Source: Brevundimonas sp.
GTDB taxonomy: Bacteria; Pseudomonadota; Alphaproteobacteria; Caulobacterales; Caulobacteraceae
Reading direction: 5' to 3'
Assembly: GCF_013912065.1 (NCBI RefSeq)
Contig: NZ_JACESA010000003.1
Span: 1 to 64,000 of the forward strand
Length of the DNA stretch: 64,000 nucleotides
Shown here piece after piece: positions 54,662 through 59,679 of this stretch (position 1 is its first letter; the number at the start of each line of letters is the position of its first letter). The notes under the pieces were generated by a model. That model did no database searches. It had not been told where the DNA came from and worked only from the letters and a program-made list of their open reading frames with translations. Position numbers and translations under genes: made by a program.

Positions 54662-55297
54662 TCACCAACGCAGGGCGAAGCGGCCGATCACGGCGCCGAT
54701 CAGGCCCGCGGCCGCGACGCCCAGCGTATACCAGGTGGCGACGAAGGCGGCGGTCGCTTCGCCGCAATGCAGCAGGCCATAGGCGGTGGCGGCGACGCCG
54801 CCCGCCGCCACGCCCAGCGCCAGGCCGGCCGCCGACGGCCGCGTCGGCGCCAGGCGGCGCGCCGACAGGAAGACCAGGGGCCCGGCGAAGGCCGAAACCA
54901 GCAGGATATTGCGGCCGCAGATGTCCCAGGTCCGGCCCAGCCAGCCGGCCATCCGTTGGTCCGGGGGCGTCATGGCCGTCTCGATTCCGCCCCAAGCCAC
55001 GGCGATCCCGACCACCGCCAGCAGGGCGAACAGCGCCGGGCGCGGATTCACGCCGGGCCGGCCTAGCCGCGTCGCCAGCCAGATCGCCGTCCCGGCCAGG
55101 GCGGCGGTATAGACCCCCTTCAGCCATGGTATGGGCGCCTGCAGGGCCTGGGTCAGGTCGGGGCGAACCCCCAGCAGAAGGGCGACCGCCGCTGCGGCCG
55201 CCGCGCCGGCCCAGGCCAGCAGCGCCGGATCCAGCCGCGCGGGGCGGACGGGCTCGATCCCGGCGGACAGGGCGTCGATCAGGTCGTCAGTCTTCAT
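54662..55297 (-). CDS. nrsF: NrsF-type (DUF1109) membrane anti-sigma factor
   Basis: A 211-residue protein with six membrane helices and a short cytoplasmic N-terminus ([19 protein letters not shown]) that would hold the sigma factor. Two cysteines, C127 (TWDICGRN) and C178 (LLHCGEAT), lie 51 residues apart, nearly the spacing of the two metal-sensing cysteines known in Caulobacter NrsF. This supports a heavy-metal or thiol-reactive signal releasing SigF. It overlaps sigF by 11 bases and is transcribed with it from the GTAACC box at 55841-55866. Confidence 0.9.
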   Translation of the reverse strand: MKTDDLIDALSAGIEPVRPARLDPALLAWAGAAAAAAVALLLGVRPDLTQALQAPIPWLKGVYTAALAGTAIWLATRLGRPGVNPRPALFALLAVVGIAVAWGGIETAMTPPDQRMAGWLGRTWDICGRNILLVSAFAGPLVFLSARRLAPTRPSAAGLALGVAAGGVAATAYGLLHCGEATAAFVATWYTLGVAAAGLIGAVIGRFALRW

Positions 55298-55829
55298 CGG
55301 GCGATACGCTGGCGGTCAGCGTCTTCATGCTGCGGTGGACGCTGACCTTGGCCGCGCCTTCGGTGAAACCATTGCGGGCGCCGGCCTCGGCCAGGCTGTA
55401 GCCGCCTATGCGGACGTCCTCGATCAGCCTGCGCTGGCGCAGCGGCAGGATGGACAGAACCTTCTTCAGGTCGCGGCGGACGGCGCCGTCCTCGACCGTA
55501 TGTTCGGCCAGCAGGACCGACGCCTCCTCCAGTGGCACGTCGGGGCGGCGGCCCTGGCGGCGGAAATGATCGATCAGCTTGTAGCGCGCGATCGCATAGG
55601 CCCACGCAGTGAAGGGCAGCGACCGGTCATAGGTCGCGCGCTTGGCGTGAATGGCGATCAGACAGTCCTGCACGAGATCCTCCGCATCGGCCTCGCAGCC
55701 GATCAGGCGACGTTTGAAGAAAGGGGTCAGGGCGCCGCGCATTTCGGACAGCAGGGCGCGCCAGGCCACGGGGTCGCCGTCGAGACCCCGCAACATCAGA
55801 CGTTTGAGCTCGGCTTCCTTGTCGACCAC
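55287..55829 (-). CDS. sigF: ECF RNA polymerase sigma factor, SigF-type
   Basis: An ECF sigma factor of about 180 residues: region 2 in [48 protein letters not shown] and region 4 in [47 protein letters not shown]. It pairs with the DUF1109 anti-sigma downstream. The frame's ATG at 55841 cannot be the start if the SigF box is used, because the -10 CGAA (55844-55841) overlaps it. I list the GTG at 55829, which implies an almost leaderless message; an ATG at 55796 is the alternative. Autoregulation is expected, since its promoter matches that of the divergent buf operon. Confidence 0.88.
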
Positions 55830-55840
55830 GCCCCATCCCA

Positions 55841-55866
55841 TTCGCGTCGGACAGGGCGAAGGTTAC
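55841..55866 (-). promoter_or_regulatory. SigF-type promoter of sigF-nrsF
   Basis: On the minus strand GTAACC (55866-55861) and CGAA (55844-55841) are separated by exactly 16 bases, identical in motif and spacing to the promoter of the divergent bufA gene. It agrees with the GTAACC-N16-CGAA motif I recall for Caulobacter SigF targets. Confidence 0.75.
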
Positions 55867-55912
55867 AGGATCGGCGGCGCGCGGCGACGAATTCTTTTTC
55901 CGAGCCGGCGGC

Positions 55913-55938
55913 GTAACCTTCGAGGGGCCGAGGCCGAA
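55913..55938 (+). promoter_or_regulatory. SigF-type promoter of the buf operon
   Basis: GTAACC (55913-55918) and CGAA (55935-55938) with a 16-base spacer. The expected start near 55946 gives a leader of about 48 bases with AGGAAAC before the bufA ATG. Confidence 0.78.
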
Positions 55939-55993
55939 CCCTTTCCTGTCTAGCTGGTCCGTCCCGGACGGCTGTCACACAGGAAACGATCCC

Positions 55994-56287
55994 ATGAACA
56001 CCTCCGCCAAGATCATGATCGGCGCCGGCGCCCTGCTGGCCCTGGGCGCCAACGCCGCCGCCGCGCAGAACCATCCCACGGCCCAGCAGGAAAACGCCAT
56101 GGAGAAATGCTATGGCGTGGCCAAGGCCGGTAAGAACGACTGCGCCGCCGGCCCCGGCACCACCTGCGCCGGCACCTCGGTGCGCGACTATCAGGGCAAT
56201 GCCTGGAAACTGGTCGCCAAGGGCACCTGCACCTCGATCCAGACGCCCAAGGGCAATGGTTCGCTGACCGCGATCCCGAACCGCTGA
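55994..56287 (+). CDS. bufA: BufA1-type bufferin precursor (DUF2282)
   Basis: A 97-residue precursor with a cleavable signal peptide ([19 protein letters not shown], cut near residue 24) and four cysteines, C39, C50, C58 and C79, in [24 protein letters not shown] and AKGTC, the DUF2282 pattern. DUF2282 peptides next to MNIO and DUF2063 genes are now known as bufferins: ribosomal peptides whose cysteines are converted to heterocycles and which sequester copper in the periplasm. First gene of a SigF-driven operon; the stop abuts the bufB ATG. Family assignment is firm; the metal bound here is inferred. Confidence 0.9.
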
Positions 56288-57135
56288 TGTCCCCCCTTCC
56301 GTCCGCCGGACTGGGTCTGAAGCCCCAGCATTATTCGGAGGCCGCGGCCTGTCCGGCGGTCGGAGCCCAGCGCGGCCTGTGGTTCGAGGTTCACCCCGAG
56401 AACTACATGGTCGCCGGCGGCCCCCGCCTGTCGTGGTTGGAGACGATCCGGGCCGCCCGGCCCCTGTCGCTGCACGGCGTGGGTCTGTCCCTGGCCGGGG
56501 ATGAACGCCCGGACCTCGAGCATCTGGCCCGCTTTCGCGCCCTGATCGACCGGTTCGAACCCTTTGTGGTGTCCGAACACCTGGCCTGGTCGCGTCGCGG
56601 CGGCGTCTATCATCCCGACCTGCTGCCCGTACCCCGAAGCCGCGAGATGCTGAACCTGGTCTGCGACCATCTGGACGAGGCGCAGCAGGCCCTGGGGCGA
56701 CGGATGCTGATCGAGAACCCGTCCGCCTATCTGGCCCTGGCCGACCACGACTGGAACGAGGTCGATTTTCTGGTCGAGATCGCCCGACGCACCGGCTGCG
56801 GCCTGCTGATCGACGTCAACAACGTCCATGTCAGCGCCTCGAACATGGGGTTCTCGGCCGAAGCCTGGCTGGACGCCGTGCCGGGCGAACTGGTGGGCGA
56901 AATCCATCTGGCGGGGCATCGTCCCGATCCGGTCTGGGGCGAGGCCCTGCTGATCGACAGCCACGACGCCCCTGTGTCGGAGGCGGTCTGGACCCTGCAC
57001 GATCGGCTGGTGGCCCGCATCGGCGCCCGTCCGACCCTGGTCGAGTGCGACGGCGACGTCCCCGACTTCCCGGTCCTTCTGGCCGAACAGGCGCGCGCCG
57101 CCCAGGCGCTGGCCGCCGTGGAGACCTCGTCATGA
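56287..57135 (+). CDS. bufB: MNIO (DUF692) peptide-modifying iron enzyme BufB
   Basis: A 282-residue TIM-barrel multinuclear non-haem iron oxidative enzyme. His, Glu and Asp metal-ligand motifs recur around the barrel: WFEVHPENYM, LSLHGVGLSL, VVSEHLAWSR, MLIENPSAYL, LLIDVNNVHVSASNMG, GEIHLAGHR, LLIDSHDAPVS and LVECDGDVPDF. MNIO enzymes oxidise cysteines of precursor peptides; here the neighbour bufA is the obvious substrate. Start and stop both overlap their neighbours by a few bases, so the operon is translationally coupled. Confidence 0.92.
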   Translation: MSPLPSAGLGLKPQHYSEAAACPAVGAQRGLWFEVHPENYMVAGGPRLSWLETIRAARPLSLHGVGLSLAGDERPDLEHLARFRALIDRFEPFVVSEHLAWSRRGGVYHPDLLPVPRSREMLNLVCDHLDEAQQALGRRMLIENPSAYLALADHDWNEVDFLVEIARRTGCGLLIDVNNVHVSASNMGFSAEAWLDAVPGELVGEIHLAGHRPDPVWGEALLIDSHDAPVSEAVWTLHDRLVARIGARPTLVECDGDVPDFPVLLAEQARAAQALAAVETSS

Positions 57136-57896
57136 CTGCCTTTCACGCTGCCTTCGACGCCGCCCTGAGCGGGGATTTCGACGCCCTGTGGCCTCATATC
57201 GAGCCGGGCGAACGGACGCTGGGGGCCCTGGCCGTCTATCGCAACACCGCGATCAAGGGCCGGATCGACGCCCTGGAAGCCAATTATCCGACCGTATTGC
57301 AGATGGTGGGCGAGGACTGGTTCCGCGCCGCCGCCCGCGTCTTCGTCGAGGAACAGCCCGGCGAGGGGCCAGTCCTGACCGACTATGGCGCGGGCTTCCC
57401 CGACTGGCTTGCGCGGTTCGAGCCGGCGCGGGACATGGCCTATCTGGCGCCCTGCGCCCGGCTGGACCGGGCCTGGACCGAGGCGCATCTGGCCGAGGAC
57501 GCCGAGCCCCTGAGCGCGCGCCAGGCCGCCGATCTGGGCCTGGGTCTGGCCGGTCTTGTCGGGCGGCTGCACCCCTCCGCCCGGCTGTTCTGGTTCGATT
57601 GGACGGCGCCGTCGCTGTGGTTGGGCCATCGCTATCCTGAGACGGACGCTGCTCTGGAATGGCGCGCGGCGCCCGAGGGCCTGCTGATCTGCCGCCCCGT
57701 CGCGGCCGTCGAGGCGGCGCGGCTGACTCGCGCCCAATGGGTCTTTCTGGACGCCTGCCGTCAGGGACGCCCGTTCGGCGCCGCCGCCGCCGCCGCCCAG
57801 GGCGCCCAACCGGGCGTCGATCTGCCGGCCCTGTTCGGCGGCCTGATCGCGCTCGGCGTCTTCGATTCCCTCTCCATCACAAAGGTCCGGTCATGA
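57132..57896 (+). CDS. bufC: DUF2063 (BufC) partner of the MNIO enzyme
   Basis: A 254-residue protein. The N-terminal domain (FHAAFDAALSG, ALAVYRNTAIKGRIDALEANYPTVLQMVGEDWFRAAARVFV) is the DUF2063 putative DNA-binding/partner domain, and the C-terminal half carries a likely peptide-recognition wing. DUF2063 proteins form complexes with DUF692 enzymes and present the precursor peptide. The ATG at 57132 overlaps the bufB stop (ATGA). A longer frame to 57045 is rejected because it runs through bufB. Confidence 0.9.
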   Translation: MTAFHAAFDAALSGDFDALWPHIEPGERTLGALAVYRNTAIKGRIDALEANYPTVLQMVGEDWFRAAARVFVEEQPGEGPVLTDYGAGFPDWLARFEPARDMAYLAPCARLDRAWTEAHLAEDAEPLSARQAADLGLGLAGLVGRLHPSARLFWFDWTAPSLWLGHRYPETDAALEWRAAPEGLLICRPVAAVEAARLTRAQWVFLDACRQGRPFGAAAAAAQGAQPGVDLPALFGGLIALGVFDSLSITKVRS

Positions 57897-58321
57897 ACCC
57901 CGTCGCCCGTATTCATCAGCGCATCACCGAAGCCGTGCCGGAGGCGGGGCTGGCCCTGCTGCTGCGCGTCGGGATCGCCACGCCCTTCTTTCTTTCTGGT
58001 CGGACCAAGGTCGAGGGGCTGCTGACGATCACGCCCTCGACCCAATACCTGTTCGCCGAGGAATACCGTGTCCCCCTGTTGCCGCCCGACCTCGCGGCCC
58101 ATCTGGCCACCTATTCCGAACACCTGTTCCCGATCCTGCTTGTCGTGGGTCTGGCGACCCGTCCGGCGGCGGCGGCCCTGCTGCTGATGACGCTGGTGAT
58201 CCAGCTTTTCGTCGAGCCGGGCGGCTGGCCGGTCCATCTGCTTTGGGCCGGGCCTCTGGCCTATCTGATCGCGCGGGGACCGGGCGCGCTCAGCCTGGAC
58301 CGTGTACTGAAGATCGACTGA
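57893..58321 (+). CDS. DoxX family membrane protein
   Basis: A 142-residue protein with four hydrophobic segments and DoxX features: ALLLRVGIATPFFLSGRTKVEG in the first helix region, YSEHLFPILLVVGLATRPAAAALLLMTLVIQLFV in the middle and a C-terminal WAGPLAYLIARGPGALSLDRVL. It is the last gene of the buf operon (ATGA overlap with bufC). DoxX genes commonly accompany these operons, perhaps for redox balance or membrane delivery; the exact role is unknown. Confidence 0.9.
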   Translation: MNPVARIHQRITEAVPEAGLALLLRVGIATPFFLSGRTKVEGLLTITPSTQYLFAEEYRVPLLPPDLAAHLATYSEHLFPILLVVGLATRPAAAALLLMTLVIQLFVEPGGWPVHLLWAGPLAYLIARGPGALSLDRVLKID

Positions 58322-58404
58322 TCCGGCCGTCCCTCTTGTCAGCCGCCTCGCTTTGCCCTTGAAGCGGGTGAAACCGGCGCGGGCCGGGCAGGGATCGCCT
58401 TTTC

Positions 58405-59679
58405 ATGTTCAGTCTTCTGAACCTCCAGAGCCTGTTCGGCCTGGTCGTCATCGTCGCCGTCTGCTGGGCGATCTCCGAGAACCGGCGGGACTTCCCGTGG
58501 AAGCTGGCGATCGGCGCCGTGGCCGTTCAGGCGACGCTGGTGCTGGCCCTGTTCGCCATTCCGGGCTCGCGCACCGTGCTGGCGGCGGTGACCGGCGCCA
58601 TCGACGGCCTTGCGGTCGCGACGGCCCAGGGCACGCGCTTCGTCTTCGGCTACCTGGCCGGCGGGGACCAGCCCTATGCGGTTCAGAACGAGGGCGCCCT
58701 GTTCACCTTCGCCTTCAACGTCCTGCCGCTGATCATGGTGATCTCGGCCCTGTCGGCCCTGTTGTGGCACTGGAAGATCCTGAAGTGGCTGATCCGGGGC
58801 TTCGGGGTGCTGTTTCAGCGGACGATGGGCCTGGGCGGCGCCTCGGCCCTGGCGGTGGCGGCCAACATCTTCCTGGGCACGATCGAGAGCCCGATCGTCA
58901 TCAAGGCCTATCTGGACAAACTGAGCCGGTCCGAAATCTTCCTGATGATGACCGTGGGCCTGGCCACCGTCGCCGGTTCGACCATGGTCGCCTACGCCAG
59001 CATCCTGTCCCAGACCCTGCCCAACGCCGCGGGCCACGTCCTGGTCGCCTCCATCGTCTCGGCCCCGGCTGGCGTGCTGCTGGCGCGGATCATCGTGCCT
59101 GAGCCGGACAAGGAAGCCATCCAGTCGATCAGCTATGACTCGGCCCTGAAATACGACAGCGCCATCGACGCCATATCCAAGGGCACCTCGGACGGTCTGA
59201 TGGTCGTGCTGAATATCTCGGCGGTGCTGATTGTCTTCGTGGCCCTGGTGGCCCTGGTCAATCTGATGCTGGGCGGCTTCATCGTCTTCGGCGAGCCCCT
59301 GACGGTCGAGCGGATCCTGGGCGTCCTGTTCACGCCCCTGGCCTGGCTGATCGGCGTCGATGCGCGCGAGGCGGGGGTCGGCGGCTGGCTGCTGGGGGTC
59401 AAGCTGACCCTGACCGAGTTCGTGGCCTTCATCGACCTCGGCAAGATCCCGACCGACGCCATGAGCGAGCGGACGCGGATGCTGATGACCTATGCCCTGT
59501 GCGGCTTCGCCAATATCGGTTCAGTCGGCATCACCGTGACCGGCCTGTCGGTGCTGATGCCCGAGCGCCGTCACGAGGTTCTGAGCTTGATCTGGAAGGC
59601 GCTGTTCGCCGGCTTCATGGCCACTTTGATGAGCGCCGCCATCGTCGGCGCCTTGCCAGCGGCGGTGTTCGGGCAGTAG
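58405..59679 (+). CDS. Concentrative nucleoside transporter (NupC/CNT family)
   Basis: A 424-residue inner-membrane symporter with about ten hydrophobic segments. Signature parts: VFGYLAGGDQPY, FAFNVLPLIMVISALSALLWHWKIL, GGASALAVAANIFLGTIESPIVIKAYL, MTVGLATVAGSTMVAYASIL and ALCGFANIGSVGITVTGLSVLMPERR. It imports nucleosides with protons or sodium. Monocistronic or co-transcribed with the GST gene 27 bases downstream. Confidence 0.93.
   Translation: MFSLLNLQSLFGLVVIVAVCWAISENRRDFPWKLAIGAVAVQATLVLALFAIPGSRTVLAAVTGAIDGLAVATAQGTRFVFGYLAGGDQPYAVQNEGALFTFAFNVLPLIMVISALSALLWHWKILKWLIRGFGVLFQRTMGLGGASALAVAANIFLGTIESPIVIKAYLDKLSRSEIFLMMTVGLATVAGSTMVAYASILSQTLPNAAGHVLVASIVSAPAGVLLARIIVPEPDKEAIQSISYDSALKYDSAIDAISKGTSDGLMVVLNISAVLIVFVALVALVNLMLGGFIVFGEPLTVERILGVLFTPLAWLIGVDAREAGVGGWLLGVKLTLTEFVAFIDLGKIPTDAMSERTRMLMTYALCGFANIGSVGITVTGLSVLMPERRHEVLSLIWKALFAGFMATLMSAAIVGALPAAVFGQ

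Follow-up and report, generated by a model that had tools for sequence, protein, structure and literature searches.

What signal throws the SigF/NrsF switch that lies beside a bufferin operon, and does this switch serve the bufferin only? The questions are raised by a locus at positions 54,662 to 58,321 of a stretch of 64,000 nucleotides (the window) from contig NZ_JACESA010000003.1 of Brevundimonas sp. (assembly GCF_013912065.1; 3.54 Mb in 45 contigs). Here sigF and nrsF, for a sigma factor and its anti-sigma factor, are on the minus strand, and bufA, bufB, bufC and doxX run divergently from them on the plus strand. We consider it highly probable that the locus is a self-contained envelope-stress switch, with copper or another soft metal as the most likely inducer. 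The genes, the promoter sequences, their conservation and their co-occurrence in the genus are observed directly, and the features are as follows.

54662..55297, minus strand: nrsF, anti-sigma factor of 211 amino acids with Cys127 and Cys178 (PF06532, 178.9 bits, cut-off 26.8)
55287..55829, minus strand: sigF, extracytoplasmic function (ECF) sigma factor of 180 amino acids from a revised GTG start at 55829 (NF009191, Sigma70_r2; a longer frame runs from ATG 55841)
55841..55866, minus strand: SigF-type promoter of sigF-nrsF, exact match to GTAACC-N16-CGAA
55913..55938, plus strand: SigF-type promoter of the bufferin operon, exact match to GTAACC-N16-CGAA
55994..56287, plus strand: bufA, DUF2282 bufferin-1 precursor of 97 amino acids (PF10048, 86.6 bits, cut-off 22.4)
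56287..57135, plus strand: bufB, MNIO bufferin maturase of 282 amino acids (MNIO, 306.5 bits, cut-off 25; NF050167 MNIO_BufB, 344.3 bits, cut-off 310)
57132..57896, plus strand: bufC, DUF2063 partner protein of 254 amino acids (PF09836, 70.7 bits, cut-off 27.2)
57893..58321, plus strand: doxX, DoxX-family membrane protein of 142 amino acids (PF07681, 65.6 bits, cut-off 23.6)

The gene order, the coordinates and the buf gene overlaps of an initial annotation, made from the sequence alone, are all reproduced on re-check. On the minus strand nrsF and sigF overlap by 11 nt; on the plus strand the overlaps are 1 nt for bufA/bufB (TGATG), 4 nt for bufB/bufC and 4 nt for bufC/doxX. That annotation had concluded that stoichiometry is translationally coupled. 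The overlaps do suggest coupling, but overlap does not establish a fixed stoichiometry, and the bufA product would be expected in excess over its own enzymes.

The profile matches give the bufferin-1 set, that is, a DUF2282 precursor with four cysteines, a BufB-type MNIO and a DUF2063 partner. The BufA cysteines, at 39, 50, 58 and 79, agree with the four of DUF2282 type described earlier; they are conserved in at least 97% of 37 aligned sequences and by eye are present in all 37. Also judged by eye, the BufA N-terminus resembles a Sec signal peptide. BufB has relatives with solved MNIO structures (PDB 3bww, 8hci and 7dz9). Against the NCBIfam HvfC equivalog, BufC reaches 23.5 bits, under the cut-off of 142, and the match of DoxX to HvfX is likewise under its cut-off. 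The host genome holds a single MNIO and a single DUF2282 protein.

NrsF, of which there is also a single match in the host genome, has its cysteines at 127 and 178, 51 residues apart as first noted. Both are invariant across 39 aligned NrsF proteins (38 of the 50 matched loci plus the window). SigF matches NF009191 with 171.7 bits, barely over the cut-off of 171, and contains a Sigma70_r2 domain. An NrsF-family anti-sigma factor with a conserved cysteine pair, encoded together with its sigma factor, is the ECF16-type arrangement at sequence level.

Each operon is preceded by a perfect outward-facing GTAACC-N16-CGAA box, and the two boxes lie within 98 bp and have the longer string GTAACCTTCG in common. 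The two identical outward boxes of the initial annotation are thus exact, at 55841-55866 (minus) and 55913-55938 (plus). When the genome-wide box comparison that it had proposed is run, only three perfect N16 sites appear and the divergent pair makes up two of them, while the reversed pattern gives none. A rough estimate for any two of three random sites falling within 98 bp is ~2e-4, orientation not counted. Single sites prove nothing, since perfect sites are common across the genus: at least one is found in 108 of the 131 Brevundimonas genomes that form our survey, including genomes without NrsF. With one mismatch allowed, the window has four matches, which is unexceptional (7 of 100 shuffles reach four). 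Two further sites of the host genome were rejected as promoters, namely the third perfect N16 site (C12:220585), inside a long helicase-like frame, and a perfect site with a spacer of 15 (N15; C41:102364), inside an open reading frame. For another perfect N15 site (C2:13658), neither a clear gene context nor an Rfam match turned up. Overall, the pair is beyond chance because of its closeness, its share of the perfect sites in the genome and its conservation, the last being the stronger evidence.

The conservation is nearly complete at bufA. Among 32 distinct bufA upstreams (window included), a perfect N16 box is found in 26 and an N16 box with at most one mismatch in 29, beginning 69-94 nt before bufA. 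The remaining three have an N15 box, which brings the total to 32 of 32 at one mismatch or less. With control spacers of 12-14 and 17-20, perfect matches are absent and one-mismatch matches number two at most. For sigF, a box of N16 or N15 spacing and no more than one mismatch is present in 46 of 49 distinct upstreams (window included); a control spacer of 12 reaches 7 here, which makes an isolated weak sigF site less trustworthy. These sets comprise the regions fetched, after removal of four duplicate loci and of L142, whose bufA upstream was not long enough. In four genomes where the two operons are convergent, the bufA box is kept at its usual distance (N16 in L124; N15 in L123, L125 and L126), with one mismatch in three of them. 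As the box is kept without the divergent layout, this argues that it serves bufA itself.

The same alignments bear on the start of sigF. The A of ATG 55841 is the final base of the -10 element CGAA, and this codon is unconserved, as small indels between box and frame shift its register in relatives. The in-frame GTG at 55829, on the other hand, is the aligned SigF start in 38 of 39 loci (window included, duplicates kept); the 39th (L072) has the same CGTGG letters with the alignment one base off. In all 38 loci with a box found, the GTG lies 9-14 nt past the -10 box. For these reasons we take GTG 55829 as the start. If transcription begins ~7 nt past the -10, the sigF mRNA is probably near-leaderless, with a leader of only a few nt, while bufA by the same reckoning has a leader of ~50 nt containing AGGAAA. 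The conserved GTG corrects what is likely the annotated start.

Within the survey, bufferins appear strictly dependent on NrsF. NrsF occurs in 55 of the 131 genomes, and BufB and DUF2282 in 38 each (36 of the BufB matches above their cut-off). The BufB and DUF2282 genome sets are identical and all 38 fall inside the 55, while both are missing from all 76 genomes that lack NrsF (Fisher p 5e-20 for NrsF and BufB, ignoring relatedness). In 33 of the 38 genomes, nrsF and bufB diverge within 3 kb of each other; in four they are convergent within 3 kb, and in one they are on different contigs.

How would such a switch work? By analogy with Caulobacter crescentus, NrsF, an inner-membrane anti-sigma factor with six helices in that species, would hold SigF. 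The signal would be a thiol-reactive agent present in the envelope, most probably copper or some other soft metal; by disturbing the Cys127/Cys178 pair it would set SigF free. Free SigF would then transcribe from both outward promoters, that is, its own operon and bufABC-doxX. BufB with BufC would turn cysteines of the BufA precursor into thiooxazoles, and the exported bufferin would trap copper in the periplasm. In the host genome, SigF seems to have no target other than sigF-nrsF and the bufferin operon, since PF00174 (Oxidored_molyb) is unmatched there and no further perfect site stands in a clear promoter setting.

Several points weigh against this model. NrsF scores 145 bits against the NCBIfam equivalog NF042994, below the cut-off of 300. 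The claim of a sole target draws on perfect sites and on the missing PF00174, degenerate boxes such as those with CGTA at -10 lying outside the genome-wide search. According to PMC3511200, C. crescentus sigF is not strongly autoregulated despite having the same promoter motif. The NrsF-family pair BcrS/AbcS of Brucella (C129/C179) is induced by hypochlorous acid (HOCl; PMC8315932). Finally, bufferin genes are lacking from 17 of the 55 genomes with NrsF; across the genus, then, the switch is not reserved for bufferins. The initial annotation had proposed that SigF/NrsF drives both itself and the bufferin operon with the cysteine pair as sensor, and this part stands on homology, co-occurrence, promoter conservation and the C. 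crescentus literature. Its choice of a metal as inducer is not established, because the Brucella relative responds to hypochlorous acid and many Brevundimonas SigF appear wired to an oxidant-repair-type operon.

The bufferin-lacking genomes are informative on what else SigF may control. In 15 of these 17 (G164 and G183 left out) we have counted 57 perfect boxes, compared with 29 for the reversed pattern; therefore about half of the boxes may be background. Of 30 boxes checked with a rough gene caller, 12 are inside called frames (one is the own box of sigF, in L207) and 18 outside. Ten downstream genes were scanned: three DUF417, two MoaA-type, two DUF1223, and one each of flavin mononucleotide (FMN) reductase, cytochrome b561 and a family-less Met-rich lipoprotein-like protein. 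The DUF417 membrane-protein genes have a perfect SigF-type box right before them in three bufferin-lacking genomes (L210, L219, L231). Near a SigF-type box or adjoining sigF there are also genes for small proteins that look like lipoproteins and repeat a Met-Ala-Pro motif, as at L234:302-577 (minus strand), and genes like this one are found beside sigF at L119:4794-5108 and L113:4763-5065. By eye, these products are reminiscent of the Met-rich peptides in relatives that respond to HOCl.

The candidate target examined with controls is the cytochrome b561/PF00174 operon. A first test took in ~750 bp before PF00174 and came up with no N16 box among 35 genomes with NrsF and 27 without, and with a single N15 near-match; it left out G168 and G242, which have NrsF and another type of PF00174 match. 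Its result misled, as the operon opens with a cytochrome b561 gene (in 40 of 40 genomes examined) and the box stands ~1.1 kb upstream. We have therefore searched to 2.3 kb in 20 of the 35 and 20 of the 27 genomes. An N16 box with at most one mismatch lies 33-84 nt before the cytochrome b561 gene in 15 of 20 genomes with NrsF and 2 of 20 without (p 7e-5). Among those with NrsF, it is found in 13 of 13 without bufferin (12 with one mismatch) but in 2 of 7 with bufferin (p 1e-3). These 13 are from the 14 bufferin-lacking genomes with PF00174 (G183 left out), and the seven from 23 with bufferin; both p values ignore relatedness. Among the 17 boxes just 2 are perfect; in the others CGTA replaces CGAA at -10. 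As for the noise level in the same regions, a spacer of 17 matches in four genomes with NrsF, and a spacer of 13 on the reverse strand also in four.

From these data the SigF/NrsF switch seems to swap payloads in the genus, between copper buffering and oxidant repair, judging mostly from one-mismatch boxes. A broader proposal, to which we give an even chance, is that Brevundimonas SigF/NrsF is a module with interchangeable payloads, bufferin or a cytochrome b561/molybdo-oxidoreductase set, some with MoaA, DUF417 or a Met-rich lipoprotein, and seldom both in the genomes examined. The window strain would then be the reduced, one-locus extreme, and sigF-nrsF may decay where both payloads are lost. 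The cases behind the decay idea are the truncated nrsF of G164 and the orphan bufC-doxX beside sigF in G159. Against it, nrsF is in two pieces in the bufferin-bearing G149 and BufB in two pieces in G150 (assembly errors are possible), and G183 has an interrupted nrsF yet also a PF00174 match.

Some of these loci deserve description in their own right. In G234 (L064, L120) the whole buf operon is absent, while sigF-nrsF, the sigF box and the neighbours seen in the window (the aminotransferase/response-regulator side and the NupC side) are kept; L064:5025-7630 is syntenic with window positions 54662-59679 except for the missing operon. The bufC and doxX left beside sigF in G159 are without bufA or bufB, and nrsF is only partly matched in G164. 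In G183 (L112:5601-6705), also without bufferin, sigF is open and nrsF is interrupted by a stop, where a sequencing error is possible. In the bufferin-lacking L111, L114 and L122, sigF-nrsF is preceded by a same-strand gene of 2-oxoglutarate (2OG)-Fe(II) oxygenase type or short-chain-dehydrogenase type, where the window has the divergent bufferin operon.

The strongest rival to a metal inducer draws on these other targets. In this view reactive chlorine or a different oxidant would be the signal, acting through oxidation of the NrsF cysteines, with bufferin and DoxX forming one envelope thiol defence and repair of oxidised envelope proteins being the older output. We regard this as possible, though clearly less probable than a soft metal. 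The SigF-type box before cytochrome b561/PF00174 in all 13 bufferin-lacking genomes examined speaks for it, as do the perfect boxes seen ahead of genes for MoaA-type, DUF417, DUF1223 and Met-rich lipoprotein products, each kind in between one and three genomes. In addition, PMC8315932 describes for Brucella BcrS/AbcS a twin-box layout before an HOCl-induced Met-rich peptide and MsrQP, and it says that C. crescentus SigF responds to reactive oxygen species. The host genome itself, however, has no other perfect site in a clear promoter context, and profile search finds in it no match to PF00174, the Oxidored_molyb component of the SigF/NrsF-MsrPQ regulon. Therefore we have not filed the locus under this oxidant-defence regulon.

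It is also conceivable, though unlikely, that the intact genes serve against a different metal or thiol stress, be it cadmium, chromate or gold, and that copper is incidental. Chromium and cadmium do induce the C. crescentus system, where dichromate leads to release of SigF (PMC3511200), and gold, silver and copper induce the gig cluster of Cupriavidus, as told in PMC8224329. The latter source also reports that copper induces the C. crescentus regulon, that a sigF::Tn5 mutant is copper-sensitive, and that cells with inactivated sigF grow worse in copper, unlike in chromate or cadmium, which favours copper. That both boxes are chance matches, with the operons under other promoters, is extremely improbable: one-mismatch matches are common in the window and perfect sites occur without NrsF too, but the pair is tight, all 32 bufA upstreams have the box at a near-fixed position while other spacers give next to nothing, and the corresponding C. 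crescentus promoters were mapped by 5' rapid amplification of cDNA ends (5' RACE) or primer extension (PMC3511200).

With copper or another soft metal preferred as inducer, the locus is mostly already explained and belongs to the SigF/NrsF-bufferin kind of C. crescentus. Among the literature matches listed on DUF692/MNIO/bufferins, Brevundimonas is unnamed, no match joins it with NrsF, and in the literature on the system we found no precedent for the revised sigF start, the dependence of bufferin on NrsF in the genus or the payload swap. The locus adds little new biochemistry, and it makes the NrsF signal cleanly testable: with an apparently bufferin-only SigF regulon beside bufferin-lacking sister species whose SigF seems wired to oxidant repair, metal and oxidant can be compared with few confounding targets.

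Among known systems, the DUF2282-DUF692-DUF2063-DoxX operon with sigF-nrsF is like C. crescentus CC3254-CC3257, for which Kohler et al. 2012 (PMC3511200) describe the same operons under promoters of the same GTAACC-N16-CGAA type and an nrsF that is undeletable while sigF is functional. The NrsF cysteines there are C131/C181, 50 residues apart compared with 51 here. Unlike the host genome, with its single MNIO, single DUF2282 and lack of PF00174, C. crescentus places two buf operons and an Oxidored_molyb (YedY) target under SigF control. The gene content, with four-Cys DUF2282 precursor, MNIO, DUF2063 and DoxX, is no different from that of Buf1 clusters (captophorins). Buf1 clusters include sigma factor and NrsF genes (PMC12452194), bufferins are described as periplasmic copper-binding thiooxazole peptides, ribosomally synthesized and post-translationally modified (PMC12452194, PMC13097082), and 5-thiooxazoles have been assigned in Caulobacter bufferin 1 (PMC13097082). 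Brucella melitensis BcrS-AbcS/bcrXQP is also alike in its ECF16 sigma factor, NrsF-family anti-sigma factor, two conserved cysteines and twin opposite-strand GTAACC-N16-CGAA boxes before both operons, according to PMC8315932, whereas its payload is the HOCl-induced Met-rich peptide and MsrQP and the payload here is the bufferin operon.

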